From NCBI GenBank assembly GCA_018267925.1, contig JAFDXO010000182.1:62001-126000 (forward strand): a stretch of DNA of 64,000 bases. The letters are read 5' to 3'. Both the position numbers and the translations under genes were made by a program. This document shows positions 56,289 through 62,247 of the stretch, one piece after another. The stretch is from Bacteroidota bacterium. GTDB taxonomy: Bacteria; Bacteroidota; Bacteroidia; Chitinophagales; Chitinophagaceae. The notes under the pieces are model-generated. The model had not been told where the DNA came from, ran no database searches, and saw only the letters and a list, made by a program, of their open reading frames with translations. Each line of letters starts with the position of its first letter. The stretch's first letter is position 1.

Positions 56289-58442
56289 CTATTTCAAAAA
56301 ATTATCGAAATAGTCTGATATTTTTTGCATCAAATGAACGCGGTCTTTTCCTCGTACATTATGTTCATATCCCGGATAAACAAAATAGTCAACCTGTACA
56401 TTTTGATCTATCGCGTTTTTCAAAAACAAAATCGAATGTTGCCACACAACCGTTGCGTCATCCGTACCATGAATAACCAACAATTTTCCTTTCAGTTCTT
56501 TTGTCTTAGTAAGCAAATTGGCATTTGCATAGCCTTCCGAATTGGTTTGAGGGGTTCCCATATATCGCTCGGTGTACATCACTTCATACATGCGCCAATC
56601 CATAACCGGTCCACCTGCAACTCCAACTTTAAAAACATCTGGATGTCGTAGCATCAATGAGGTGGTCATAAAACCGCCAAATGACCAACCATGAACACCC
56701 ATTCGCTTAGAATCTACAAACGGTAAAGATTTAAGATAATCTACACCTTTTAACTGATCTTCCATTTCAACCGTTCCCAATTGATGAAAAGTAGCTTGTT
56801 CAAACTTTAGACCTCGATTTGCACTTCCTCTTCCATCCATAGTAAACACCACATAGCCCCGCTGTGCCATATATTCATACCATAGATTTCCACTCTCAGG
56901 AAAAGTATTGCGTACTAATTGCACATGGGGACCATTATACAAATAAACGATGACGGGATATTTTTTAGTTTCATCAAAATTTGTTGGCAAAATCAATTTA
57001 CCATATAATGGCGTACCATCGCTTGCCTTTAAAGTAATGTCTTTGATTGATGGGCGATTATATTCAGCAAGGGTATTGCTCGCTTTTAGTAAGATAGTTG
57101 AAAAGTTCGTTTGAGTGCTTTGAATTTTACAAACCCGAGGAACAGCTTTACCGGTATAATTATCAAAAATAAAAGCTCCATTTTCACTTGTCAATAAGGT
57201 ATGCACGCCTGCTTCCTTGTCTAATCGGCGCATTTTTCCGGTTGTTAGATTAACTGCATATCCATGTTTTTCTAAAGGAGATTCTTTCGCAGATGTAATG
57301 ATAACCTCATTTTCATTAAAGCCTATAATTTCATTCACATCATAATTGCCCTTAGTAAGTTCTTTCAACTGTTCGCCTTGCGTACTGTATAAATAAAGGT
57401 GCTGATATCCATCTTTGTTGCTCCACCAAATAAAGCGATTGTTGTCATTAGGCAAAAACTGTAGCGGATGCTGTGGTTCTACATAGGTTTTACTTTCTTC
57501 TTCAAAAAGAGTTTTCAATCTGTTTCCGGTGTGTGCATCATATTGATTAAGCCATAGATGATTTTGGGCTCGATTTAGTACTGCGACATAAATGAAGCGT
57601 TCATCTGGACTCCATGTTACAGAGGTCAGATATTGATCTTTAGGTGCGCCCGTAGCCAATTCAACGGTATGTCGAGTAGCTGGATCAAATACGCGAATGG
57701 TTACCTCGTGCGAACTGTCGCCAGCCATCGGATACTTGATTATATCGGCAACAGCAGGGATCGGGTTCCAATTGATAATAGGATAATCTTTAACCATACG
57801 CTGATTCATGCGATAGTAGGCTATCAGATTGCCTTTGGGGGAAAAGAAAATTCCACGATCAATTCCAAATTCATTGCGGTGTACGGCTTGACCATTGATG
57901 ATGTTTTTGTCAGCATCATTAGTTAACTGAATTGGTGTTCCGTCACTTAAAGACAAAAACAGATTATTGGCTAAAGTGAATACTACTTTTTTACTTCGAT
58001 CTACCGTAATATTTGAGGCATCTTTGGGCAGTGTAAGCCACTGTTTCCATTTCATATCCTGATCACGAAGCACGCCCAGTACTAAATGATTTCGATTATT
58101 GAAATAGACTTGTTTGGAATCTATCCAATTGAATGACGGCATTCCTTTCAGACTATCCTTAGCAAATAACCGATTGTTCAAATTAGAGAGCGACTCAACG
58201 GTATCTTTTTTGATTTCAGGAATGGACAATCGAACTAACCATTCATTTTTCCCATCTTTTTCTACTTGAAAGAAACATGTTGTTCCTGGCTGCCATGAAG
58301 GTTGCTTAATGTTCTTTAAGGCTAAAGTAGTGGACAGCCCGTTAGTTGCTTCTGCAATGGTAAAATTCTTCTTTTGCGCTGAAGAAAAAGTAGTATTAAA
58401 AAGAGCAATTGCTAGTAAAAAGCGAACTCGATTAGATAACAT
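56289..58442 (-). CDS. Dipeptidyl peptidase IV-like S9B serine peptidase
   Basis: 717 aa with a signal peptide (end near FSSAQ, residue 22), an eight-bladed beta-propeller and an alpha/beta-hydrolase domain. The nucleophile lies in GWSFGGFMT (about 584). The Asp is in HGTDDATV (about 659) and the His in PGYEHNVRG (about 694). A DGRGSANRG motif precedes the catalytic domain, and the S9B DPP IV layout is complete. It removes X-Pro or X-Ala dipeptides in the periplasm. Confidence 0.92.
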   Translation of the reverse strand: MLSNRVRFLLAIALFNTTFSSAQKKNFTIAEATNGLSTTLALKNIKQPSWQPGTTCFFQVEKDGKNEWLVRLSIPEIKKDTVESLSNLNNRLFAKDSLKGMPSFNWIDSKQVYFNNRNHLVLGVLRDQDMKWKQWLTLPKDASNITVDRSKKVVFTLANNLFLSLSDGTPIQLTNDADKNIINGQAVHRNEFGIDRGIFFSPKGNLIAYYRMNQRMVKDYPIINWNPIPAVADIIKYPMAGDSSHEVTIRVFDPATRHTVELATGAPKDQYLTSVTWSPDERFIYVAVLNRAQNHLWLNQYDAHTGNRLKTLFEEESKTYVEPQHPLQFLPNDNNRFIWWSNKDGYQHLYLYSTQGEQLKELTKGNYDVNEIIGFNENEVIITSAKESPLEKHGYAVNLTTGKMRRLDKEAGVHTLLTSENGAFIFDNYTGKAVPRVCKIQSTQTNFSTILLKASNTLAEYNRPSIKDITLKASDGTPLYGKLILPTNFDETKKYPVIVYLYNGPHVQLVRNTFPESGNLWYEYMAQRGYVVFTMDGRGSANRGLKFEQATFHQLGTVEMEDQLKGVDYLKSLPFVDSKRMGVHGWSFGGFMTTSLMLRHPDVFKVGVAGGPVMDWRMYEVMYTERYMGTPQTNSEGYANANLLTKTKELKGKLLVIHGTDDATVVWQHSILFLKNAIDQNVQVDYFVYPGYEHNVRGKDRVHLMQKISDYFDNFLK

Positions 58443-58543
58443 GCCAAAGATTTTAAGTAGAAAATAACAGGGATAAAAATAGACATTCCCTTATTTTACA
58501 CAACGATTAACTCACCCACTTTACTGTTTTAAAATGTAAGGCT

Positions 58544-59617
58544 ATGCGCCAAATACTCCTATTTATGTCGTTCTTTATGTCGGCTATTGTATCTTTTGGT
58601 CAGTTCGCTTATTTCAATAGTGATGAATTTTGGCAAAAGACACCTTTACTCTCACCCAATACCGACGTAAAAATCTTACCTTCTGATACGGCTATTATAG
58701 TTGCCAGTAATAGAGAAGAAGATATTTCTAAGATTAGATATTTGCCTGAAATGCGCTCCGGGAAAGGCATTCGTTACTTTGTTGTTTTTTCTAGAAATGG
58801 GAAATGGAATGTTCTTCCTGTTTCATCCTTGCAAGATGCATTACATCAAATGCCTCGTCTTGATTTACCTTGGGTGATTTATACGGAAGGCATGGGTAAG
58901 TTTTTTACCTCTAATCTTGACAGAGGTATGAACCTCTCAGCACAATATGGTGTAAATGTGTTGATGTTTGATTATCCGAGTCTTTCATCGCATAGAAAAA
59001 GGTTAGGTAATTATTTTTTTGCTAAGAAAAATGCTACTGTTGCCTACCATGATTTTCTTCCAGTGCTGAAAGAAATCAGGTTGCTAAATTCAACTAAACA
59101 ATTTGGACAAGGCGGTATCAATCTTTTCTTTCACAGCATGGGCAATATTGTGATGCAGCAAATTGTTAAACATCATTTGGTTAATGAGCTAAACGGATCA
59201 AAATGGGTTAACAACCTCATTTTTAATGCGCCTTGTATTCCTCAAAAAGGGCATCAGAAAATGATAGACCAAATTCACTTTGCCAAGCACATTTATATCA
59301 ATTACAATCCTGAAGATTATACGCTTGGCGGAGCCTACCTTGTCAGTAAGCGTTATCAATTGGGCAAACAAATTCATCGTCCTTTAGCTAAGGAAGCTAT
59401 CTATGTTAATTTCAACGACATTGCCGGAGATGGTCATAGTAACTTTTTGAACCTTATAGGTAGAAATGAAATACCCCCTGCTGCGGAAAACTTTTACTAC
59501 ACCCTATTTCATGGTGATACGGCATCAGTTCATAATACTGTTTTATTTTTACCCAGTAAGCACAGAAAAATTGGTTATGATTTGCTTCCAATACCTTCAA
59601 CCACAGCACATCAATAA
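58544..59617 (+). CDS. Exported alpha/beta-hydrolase
   Basis: 357 aa with a signal peptide ending near VSFGQ (residue 20). The core alpha/beta-hydrolase motif is an FFHSMGN nucleophile elbow (Ser near residue 199), followed by FNAPCIPQKGH. The fold resembles DUF900-type periplasmic hydrolases. Catalytic Asp and His are not certain. The substrate is unknown. It converges with kdsB. Confidence 0.65.
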   Translation: MRQILLFMSFFMSAIVSFGQFAYFNSDEFWQKTPLLSPNTDVKILPSDTAIIVASNREEDISKIRYLPEMRSGKGIRYFVVFSRNGKWNVLPVSSLQDALHQMPRLDLPWVIYTEGMGKFFTSNLDRGMNLSAQYGVNVLMFDYPSLSSHRKRLGNYFFAKKNATVAYHDFLPVLKEIRLLNSTKQFGQGGINLFFHSMGNIVMQQIVKHHLVNELNGSKWVNNLIFNAPCIPQKGHQKMIDQIHFAKHIYINYNPEDYTLGGAYLVSKRYQLGKQIHRPLAKEAIYVNFNDIAGDGHSNFLNLIGRNEIPPAAENFYYTLFHGDTASVHNTVLFLPSKHRKIGYDLLPIPSTTAHQ

Positions 59618-59623
59618 CACCAA

Positions 59624-60367
59624 TTATTGTTTGTTCATCAGGCGCAAAACCTTTTCTACATCTTCCGGAGTATCTATACAATGGCTATCAAAACGAGTAA
59701 TGGCGCATTTTATTTTAAATCCATTTTCAAGCCAACGTAACTGCTCTAAAGACTCAGCTTTTTCTAAAGATGAAACCGGTAGTTGGGTTATTTGTTCTAA
59801 AATGTCCGTTCTATAAGCATACATGCCTACATGCCTATAATACGAATGGTGTTCATGCCATTTTTTAAGGTCAATACCTTTGATATATGGAATAACCGCT
59901 CTGCTGAAATAAAGAGCCTCCATTCGATGATTTAAGGTAACTTTTACTTCACCATAATCAAACAATACTTCAGGGTCATTAACCGGAATAATAAGTGTTG
60001 CCAATTCTGTTTTTTCATCTTGCAAAACAGTTGCCAATGTATCTATTTGCGTAGGGTCAATAAATGGTTCATCACCTTGAATATTGATCACATACCGTGT
60101 ATTACTACTGATTTGCTTCAAGGCATCCCAACACCTATCTGTGCCACTTGAATGATCTGATTGAGTCATTACAACTTGTCCACCAAAACGCTGAACATGG
60201 TCAAAAATTCGAGCATCATCCGTTGCAACAATCACTTTGTTTAGAGATTTGCTTTGAGAAGCTTGAGTATATACTCGCTCTATCATAGACTTTCCTTCTA
60301 TTTCGATCAGAGGCTTGCCCGGAAAGCGTGTGGAGGCATAGCGGGCAGGAATAATTCCAACAATCAT
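59624..60367 (-). CDS. kdsB: 3-deoxy-manno-octulosonate cytidylyltransferase (CMP-KDO synthetase)
   Basis: The GT-A-like opening IVGIIPARYASTRFPGKPLIEI, VATDD, QGDEPFIDP and YRHVGMYAYR are the KdsB signatures, and 247 aa is standard. It activates KDO with CTP for lipid A/LPS core. The ATG overlaps the stop of the HAD gene (ATGA), so the two are coupled. Confidence 0.95.
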   Translation of the reverse strand: MIVGIIPARYASTRFPGKPLIEIEGKSMIERVYTQASQSKSLNKVIVATDDARIFDHVQRFGGQVVMTQSDHSSGTDRCWDALKQISSNTRYVINIQGDEPFIDPTQIDTLATVLQDEKTELATLIIPVNDPEVLFDYGEVKVTLNHRMEALYFSRAVIPYIKGIDLKKWHEHHSYYRHVGMYAYRTDILEQITQLPVSSLEKAESLEQLRWLENGFKIKCAITRFDSHCIDTPEDVEKVLRLMNKQ

Positions 60368-61047
60368 AATGGTTGTTTAGATATAGTTGAGTTAATGCTG
60401 GTAAAAAATTCAGGTTCGGTTAATTGGCGTAGTTGTAAATAACGCTGATAAGTGTCTGTAAAGTTTATTCTATGATGAAGCGTTTCGTCAAATTGCCCAC
60501 CGAGGCTCATCAATAATTCGGCTATTTCACGCACTGCATAATGTCCTCCATCGCTAAAGGTGAGATAGTCCACCAGCTTGTTTCTTATTGCATAGTCTGT
60601 TAGCAAGGTACTACCTGATCTTGTTACCATGAAACGAAGGCTGATTTTAGCAGCTACTGAAAAATCAAGTACATCATCAAAAGCAAATACAATCTCATTA
60701 TGTTTGATCCCTTTTGTGTGACAAATATGATCTAATGCTTCTGTTTTAAACTTGATACTGCTATACACTGCATCAAACTTTTCGCGTCGTGCAAGGGTTT
60801 GTGCTGCTATATTATTTTCTCCGGAAATAATGAAAATCTTGGGCAGTCGTCCGGTTCGCAAATAATGGTTAAAGCGAAGCAAATTTGTCCCCATAGAATC
60901 TATTTCATTAAAAGGACTACTGCCGTTTTCATTTTTTTCTCCCCGATTAAATACACCATCCCAATCAAAAACATAGGCTCTTATGGCATTTAGTTTCTCT
61001 TTCAAAATAACCGGTTCGGTGATAAATGTGCCCTTAAAGTGTTCCAT
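60364..61047 (-). CDS. HAD-family phosphatase, KdsC-like (KDO-8-phosphate phosphatase candidate)
   Basis: 227 aa. The HAD motif I is FDWDGVFNRG (DxDGV as in KdsC), motif II is IISGENN and motif III is FAFDDVLD. The KdsC-like lysine segment (SIKFKTEAL) lies before motif III. KdsC is usually 170-190 aa; this protein has an extra C-terminal region of about 35 residues. The overlapping kdsB gene strongly supports KDO-8-P dephosphorylation. Confidence 0.8.
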   Translation of the reverse strand: MEHFKGTFITEPVILKEKLNAIRAYVFDWDGVFNRGEKNENGSSPFNEIDSMGTNLLRFNHYLRTGRLPKIFIISGENNIAAQTLARREKFDAVYSSIKFKTEALDHICHTKGIKHNEIVFAFDDVLDFSVAAKISLRFMVTRSGSTLLTDYAIRNKLVDYLTFSDGGHYAVREIAELLMSLGGQFDETLHHRINFTDTYQRYLQLRQLTEPEFFTSINSTISKQPL

Positions 61048-61233: not shown

Positions 61234-62247
61234 CTAAAGAGCATCTAAATCTTGAATATCAAGCATACCAACCGGTTTACCACTTTCCGTAATCAAAATG
61301 GTATCAACATTTGTCTTTTTAAACAACAAATGAGCATCGTTCAATAAGGCAGAAGATTCAATACTGATAGGGTTTTTATATTCCATTTCACCCATCTTTT
61401 TATCCAGAATATTTTCTCCATCCTGTTGCAACAAACGACGAATATCACCATCTGTAAATACACCTTTTAAGGATCCGTCAGCATTCACTACTGTCACTGC
61501 ACCAAAGCCATATTCAGTCATTTTGATGATAGCTTCCTTCAAATTAGTATCTGCTTTCACTATGGGGTTTACACCATTGGCAGCTTCACCAACGCGAACA
61601 GTCATTAATCTGGTATCTTGAAGAAACTGTTCCGTTCCAATTGTTGTGAAATTGTTTTCTGTCAAGCCTTTCAGCACTTTTAGCGGAACAGTGATTGTGT
61701 GAACGCCCATATTGATAGCGTTGCGTACATGTTCTGCATGTCTAACGGATGAAAACATAATCTTTGTATTGTATCCATACTGATAAACAGCATTAACACA
61801 TTGCTCAACTAAGGCAAGAGCATCATGTCCTTGATCTTGCAAACGACCAACTAAAGGGCATACATACGTTGCTCCGGCGTGCATGGCCATGTATGCTTGC
61901 TGAAGGGTATATACAAGGTGTACATTCACCAGTAATCCTTCTTTACGTAACAAATAACAAGCTCGAGTTCCTTCAAGAGATACAGGGATTTTAAAAACGG
62001 TACGCTGTGGATCAAGACCAAGATCTAATTGCCGTTTTGCTTCTGCAACAACATCTTCAGCTGTTTTACCTAAAGCTTCAATTTGCAATACAGGAACCAT
62101 TTTCGATAGCTTGACGATGGTGCCGTCAATATCCGTAATGCCTTCACGCTGCATAAAAGTTGGCGTGGTTGTCAATCCATTTAAATAGCCAAGTTTGAAG
62201 CCCTCTTCAATTTCTTTGAGATTGGCGGAGTCGAGATATAATTCCAT
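61234..62247 (-). CDS. Transaldolase/FSA-like aldolase fused to two CBS domains
   Basis: 337 aa. Residues 1-215 form a small class-I aldolase barrel of the transaldolase/fructose-6-phosphate aldolase (TalC/FSA) type. Asp6 lies in YLDSANL and the Schiff-base lysine K86 in VFKIPVS. The (A)-x-x-Y-V-C-P-L-V-G-R segment carries Leu132 where FSA has Tyr and transaldolases Phe. Residues about 222-337 are two CBS domains (VVNADGSLKGVFTDGDIRRLL) strikingly like those of KdsD. It is upstream of the HAD-kdsB pair. A TACCTTTG -7 box lies at 62312-62305. Confidence 0.88.
   Translation of the reverse strand: MELYLDSANLKEIEEGFKLGYLNGLTTTPTFMQREGITDIDGTIVKLSKMVPVLQIEALGKTAEDVVAEAKRQLDLGLDPQRTVFKIPVSLEGTRACYLLRKEGLLVNVHLVYTLQQAYMAMHAGATYVCPLVGRLQDQGHDALALVEQCVNAVYQYGYNTKIMFSSVRHAEHVRNAINMGVHTITVPLKVLKGLTENNFTTIGTEQFLQDTRLMTVRVGEAANGVNPIVKADTNLKEAIIKMTEYGFGAVTVVNADGSLKGVFTDGDIRRLLQQDGENILDKKMGEMEYKNPISIESSALLNDAHLLFKKTNVDTILITESGKPVGMLDIQDLDAL

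Follow-up and report, generated by a model that had tools for sequence, protein, structure and literature searches.

Kdo synthesis is near universal in Gram-negative bacteria and is a drug target, and to our knowledge its arabinose 5-phosphate (A5P) step is known through SIS isomerases such as KdsD only. In the window studied here (the whole 64,000-nucleotide stretch of a Bacteroidota contig), one open reading frame joins an aldolase-type barrel to a CBS pair beside genes of this pathway. The locus raises the question of what such a fusion does there, and whether it could stand in for KdsD, as the first-pass annotation had suggested. The features concerned are the following.

59624..60367, minus strand: kdsB, CMP-Kdo synthetase (3-deoxy-manno-octulosonate cytidylyltransferase); TIGR00466, 225 bits against a cut-off of 155
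60364..61047, minus strand: HAD*, a divergent KdsC-like HAD phosphatase; top NCBIfam match KdsC PRK09484
61182..61208, minus strand: terminator-like hairpin with a U-run between the fusion and HAD*; from sequence and fold
61234..62247, minus strand: the fusion, an FSA/transaldolase-type barrel with a KdsD-type CBS pair, proposed KdsD replacement; from Pfam, alignment, and structure prediction

Architecture and active site of the fusion

The fusion encodes 337 amino acids from an ATG start. Pfam bore out the architecture read from the sequence in the first-pass annotation, with a TAL_FSA domain (PF00923) at residues 3 to 201 (117.8 bits against a gathering threshold of 27), which places the protein in that superfamily, and a CBS pair from residue 229 (58 bits); these were the only domains found, an SIS domain being absent. 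The barrel spans residues 1 to ca. 215 and the CBS pair ca. 220 to 335. An AlphaFold model (pLDDT 86.6, pTM 0.59) confirmed the fold of both parts, its top Foldseek matches were transaldolases from Thermotoga, Bacillus, and Thermoplasma, and the protein is 35% identical to 1vpx. The tail had been likened to that of KdsD, and indeed the closest solved structure was the CBS pair of an arabinose-5-phosphate isomerase (PDB 4o9k, E 1e-12), the only matches among the ORFs fetched were KdsD proteins, and the motif GxxTDGD[IL]RR is common to both. The KdsD model TIGR00393 matched the C-terminal part only (56 bits against a cut-off of 204), and the FSA/TalC model TIGR00875 gave 162 bits, under its equivalog cut-off of 246. 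The protein lacks defining features of KdsD as well as of FSA and should carry neither name. A join by chance or by faulty assembly was rejected because at least 86 distinct, unbroken copies were recovered, with identities of 58 to 98%. In the papers found, all of them outside subscription, no TAL-CBS protein in Kdo synthesis is described.

Across 86 fusion proteins, D6, T26, E57, K86, N108, R135, S167, and R169 were invariant and the same as in transaldolases, so that the Schiff-base lysine and Asp6 of FSA are there in 86/86. Equally invariant, and specific to the fusion when compared with 22 TAL paralogues, were T28 (for Asn), H110 (for Thr109), C130 (for Ala/Ser129), L132 (for Tyr/Phe131), and S166 (for Ala165). 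The Asn28/Thr109/Tyr/Phe131 set that serves the catalytic water and the donor in FSA is thus missing, with T28, H110, and L132 in all 86. Asp6, Lys86, and Leu132 had been picked out from this one protein, together with a departure from FSA and transaldolase at the Tyr/Phe position; the residues are as claimed, and the departure is larger, extending to T28, H110, and C130. FSA uses Lys85 for covalent catalysis and Tyr131 as proton shuttle; its catalytic water is held by Gln59/Thr109/Tyr131, the donor is contacted by Asp6/Asn28, and the phosphate-recognition region consists of Ser30/Ser166/Lys168 (PMC13259622). With K86, D6, and the phosphate site invariant and T28, H110, C130, and L132 altered, the fusion would thus retain Schiff-base chemistry and a phosphorylated partner, with proton transfer and donor contacts rebuilt. 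Because Tyr131/Phe, Thr109, and Asn28, all central to FSA/TAL chemistry, are replaced, ordinary aldolase activity should not be assumed.

A conserved operon with kdnA and kdnB

The Kdo genes said to lie next door are there: kdsB is well above its model cut-off, and HAD*, which overlaps it by 4 bases, has KdsC as its top match, though with 42 bits, far under the cut-off of PRK09484. HAD* carries the motifs DWDG, IISGEN, K, and FDDVLD. Those KdsD-positive members of the family that were tested have canonical KdsC. The source genome and many HAD*-bearing fusion genomes lack it, and several fusion genomes whose operon has no HAD* possess it; from this complementary presence, HAD* probably does the work of KdsC. 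The hairpin separating HAD* from the fusion (the segment 61165-61236 folds at -18.4 kcal/mol, z -3.6) suggests that in the source genome HAD*-kdsB may be a transcript of its own. It was missed in the terminator scan owing to its loop.

Comparison of 91 fusion loci gave the same-strand order waaA-kdnA-kdnB-kdsA*-fusion-HAD*-kdsB, in which kdsA* encodes the modified KDO8P synthase described below. Counting only loci with enough flank (within L056-L135), kdsA* lay upstream of the fusion in 49/71, and kdnB was found in 42/62, kdnA in 42/61, HAD* in 59/73, and kdsB in 44/64; the survey of context that had been proposed as a check therefore revealed conserved linkage to kds genes. In the source genome, waaA-kdnA-kdnB-kdsA* is on another contig (L225 = C38). 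As no NCBIfam model for KdnA or KdnB was above cut-off, their identity was established through PDB sequences, KdnA matching the Kdo8N transaminase 5k8b (E 3.6e-129) and KdnB the Kdo 8-oxidase 5k8c (E 1.3e-120). The combination of kdnA and kdnB with kds genes, by which Kdo8N (8-amino-Kdo) synthesis is recognized, occurs at L225 and at ca. two-thirds of the eligible fusion loci, while the other module genes were absent from the neighborhoods of 20 ordinary kdsA genes of KdsD-positive relatives. The kdnA/kdnB homologues beside kdsA* recall the Kdo8N pathway of Shewanella, of which, as far as we know, neither the fusion nor KdsA* is a part. The linkage to kdnA/kdnB and the presence of KdsA* place the fusion in a variant pathway, probably for Kdo8N, whose intermediate may be other than plain A5P.

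Loss of KdsD and a co-varying KdsA

The source genome is 100% complete. SIS, CBS, and TIGR00393 searches of it found no KdsD, and a hidden copy was rejected because the SIS matches were GlmS, PGI/PMI (phosphoglucose/phosphomannose isomerase), and GmhA only. It does have KdsA, KdsB, WaaA, and a separate canonical transaldolase (TAL). The canonical Kdo pathway (KdsD, R-type KdsA, and KdsC) is thus not found in this genome, in which KdsD is absent, KdsA* is of the M type, and no KdsC exceeds the cut-off. The genome search that could have undermined the replacement idea, for kdsD and kdsA, accordingly left it standing.

In the order (299 genomes), the full fusion occurred in nine, of which eight lacked a TIGR00393 match. 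Among 85 genomes of the same family, KdsD was missing in eight, seven of them with the fusion; one had neither (G234), and one had both (G220). Swaps between KdsD and the fusion were seen inside genera, in g5 (G071 versus seven others) and g26 (G252 versus G198). A set of 50 fusion-bearing genomes, reached through the loci and partly overlapping the order sample, gave KdsD absent in 48/50 and KdsA present in 50/50; one of them (CP075895, L067) is assembled as one complete chromosome. KdsD loss hence tracks fusion gain across and within genera, which, with the conserved kds linkage, supports the proposed replacement. KdsA was found in 25 of the 80 KdsD-negative genomes of the order, eight of these 25 being fusion genomes; most KdsD-negative genomes without the fusion had no KdsA either. 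The 17 with an ordinary R-type KdsA and neither KdsD (TIGR00393) nor the fusion (L170-L185 and L190, mainly family f20; also G234, G180, G257, G275, G291, G111, and G115) imply that other A5P sources probably exist, so that KdsD absence alone is no proof of replacement. In the two fusion genomes with KdsD (L148/L224, G220=G322; L149, G335), the KdsA found belonged to the KdsA* type; contamination or a pre-loss state could account for the KdsD contigs of G220 and G335.

Outside the order, the fusion was sparse in the phylum sample (6/395). Distant relatives (74%, 70%, and 58% identity) occurred in other families and another class, two of them, L221 and L223, retaining the kdsA*-fusion adjacency and one, L222, not, which weakens the view that the operon linkage is an accident of one family. 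Together with the within-genus swaps, these relatives suggest that the module has spread horizontally.

All 59 distinct KdsA proteins of fusion genomes carried A61D, F117Y, R120M, and K139H (E. coli numbering), which fall in the KANRS and PAFLxRQxDL motifs around the A5P pocket, while K60, N62, R63, K138, R168, H202, E239, D250, and C26 were intact, as were the PEP and metal residues. The 18 KdsA examined from other genomes had A, F, R, and K at positions 61, 117, 120, and 139. We take R120, in the PAFLxRQxDL motif, to be a ligand of the A5P phosphate. F117 corresponds to Phe112 in the Neisseria enzyme (PMC6650799), which places it in the A5P pocket. From these pocket changes, KdsA* would take either a somewhat different aldose or A5P in a different manner. 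KdsA* forms a single clade (support 100/99) and was present, in one copy each, in exactly the nine fusion genomes of the 299, where it was 72 to 86% identical to the KdsA* query. KdsA matches in the remaining 217 genomes that had one were of the ordinary type, at ≤51% identity to that query. The association has a Fisher p of ca. 2e-17, a value that ignores phylogeny, and co-transfer of the operon could explain part of it. One fusion genome (L150, G321) has both KdsA* and an ordinary R-type KdsA and no KdsD, which suggested mixed content or a binning error. Two loci titled Azovibrio restrictus and uncultured Bacteroides group (L059 and L060) fall inside the Chitinophagales KdsA* clade and are probably mislabeled MAGs.

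Proposed role, rival explanations, and wider gene context

Some Bacteroidota appear to have swapped KdsD for an unrelated aldolase-like enzyme bearing KdsD's regulatory tail. The constant company of the fusion and a modified KdsA suggests that an essential bacterial pathway has a variant not yet described, and the best reading is a transferable Kdo/Kdo8N module with an FSA-CBS enzyme in the place of KdsD. We consider it likely that the fusion is a non-orthologous replacement of KdsD, supplying a C5 aldose (A5P or a close equivalent) to the co-evolved KdsA*. It would have arisen when a transaldolase/FSA-type class I aldolase acquired the CBS pair of a KdsD. Octulosonates being what KdsB, WaaA, and KdnB work on, KdsA* should require a C5 aldose; downstream of it, the KdsC-like HAD (or KdsC), KdsB, often KdnB/KdnA, and WaaA would complete the Kdo or Kdo8N pathway, and HAD* could act before or after KdsA*. 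Through the CBS pair, CMP-Kdo(8N) or a nucleotide would probably exert feedback control. With KdsD/GutQ/KpsF (SIS-CBS), the fusion shares the proposed pathway position and a homologous CBS pair that includes TDGD[IL]RR, but its catalytic barrel is unrelated to SIS. With FSA/transaldolase C it shares the fold, Asp6, the Lys86 Schiff base, and the phosphate site, but it differs in the model score, the residues replaced at Asn28/Thr109/Ala/Ser129/Tyr/Phe131, the CBS tail, and the linkage to Kdo genes.

As to the chemistry, Lys86 would hold a C2 aldehyde unit as a Schiff base. The fusion might then add glycolaldehyde to glyceraldehyde 3-phosphate (G3P), to which we give somewhat less than an even chance; we know of no source of free glycolaldehyde at Kdo-scale flux, which counts against it. 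With these two substrates, A5P is reported as the sole product of E. coli FsaA, and TalB F178Y is reported to yield ribose 5-phosphate (R5P) in addition (PMC9947464; see also PMC8208507). The behavior of TalB F178Y makes plausible a C2 epimerase of the aldolase type, by which the fusion would split and rejoin R5P with C2 inverted and no net glycolaldehyde. This retro-aldol/aldol route would dispense with a glycolaldehyde supply and accord with the altered donor contact at position 28, and we rate it as possible if rather unlikely; the remaining weight falls on a different route or product. Synthetic Ara5P-dependent glycolaldehyde assimilation likewise obtains A5P from glycolaldehyde and G3P with FSA or TalB F178Y (PMC9947464, PMC8208507), but that pathway is engineered and catabolic, whereas the fusion occurs naturally, inside a Kdo operon, and its aldolase activity is putative. 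If the replacement is real, it would be a clear non-orthologous displacement in an essential pathway with a co-varying KdsA, and it would give the engineered FSA route to A5P a natural counterpart. It would also explain the missing kdsD of fusion genomes, and the gene swap would reveal how KdsD's CBS tail regulates. More tentatively, the two proteins may amount to an alternative way of building the Kdo (Kdo8N) octulosonate skeleton. An aldolase-fold enzyme, in place of an SIS isomerase, would make the C5 aldose for a dedicated KDO8P-synthase subtype that accepts something else than free A5P or is handed it directly by the aldolase, and the pair would spread among Bacteroidota as one module.

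The intermediate passed to KdsA* might not be A5P at all; the fusion and HAD* could, for example, yield D-arabinose or another C5 aldose whose condensation with PEP gives Kdo without an 8-phosphate. The less cationic site of KdsA* (no R120, an altered F117, D61 gained, K139 lost), with PEP and metal residues kept, speaks for this, as does its occurrence only alongside the fusion, even in the KdsD-bearing G220. We find it unlikely, however, given that R63, N62, and S64 of KdsA* and R135, S167, and R169 of the fusion are kept and that nearly all fusion genomes still have a phosphatase (HAD* or KdsC). Direct isomerization of ribulose 5-phosphate (Ru5P) to A5P on a transaldolase scaffold, with H110/E57 as acid-base pair and no C-C cleavage, would draw on an abundant precursor and fit both the replacement of KdsD and a rebuilt catalytic water triad in which a conserved His is gained and the Tyr/Phe lost. 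The invariance of the Schiff-base Lys86 and Asp6 makes it quite improbable, and we know of no precedent for aldose-ketose isomerization by a TAL/FSA fold. More improbable still, the fusion could be a passenger of an LPS operon, either a regulatory protein or a transaldolase/FSA of the ordinary kind, with A5P coming from an unrecognized isomerase. Such sources seem to exist, as in the 17 KdsA-positive genomes above, but the source genome already has a canonical TAL and its SIS proteins are all accounted for, the altered active-site residues are invariant in 86 proteins, and fusion and KdsA* coincide exactly in the 299 genomes.

The DPP-IV-like and DUF900 genes bordering kdsB (window 56289-59617) border an ordinary kdsA in the sister genome G198 (L226:3874-7928), as if the module sat at the old kdsA site, and a DPP-like gene is also near kdsA in L236. 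The gmhA gene adjoins a GmhB-like HAD (G000:C90:12135-12311; L012, L053), so heptose synthesis seems to be separate from the Kdo module.
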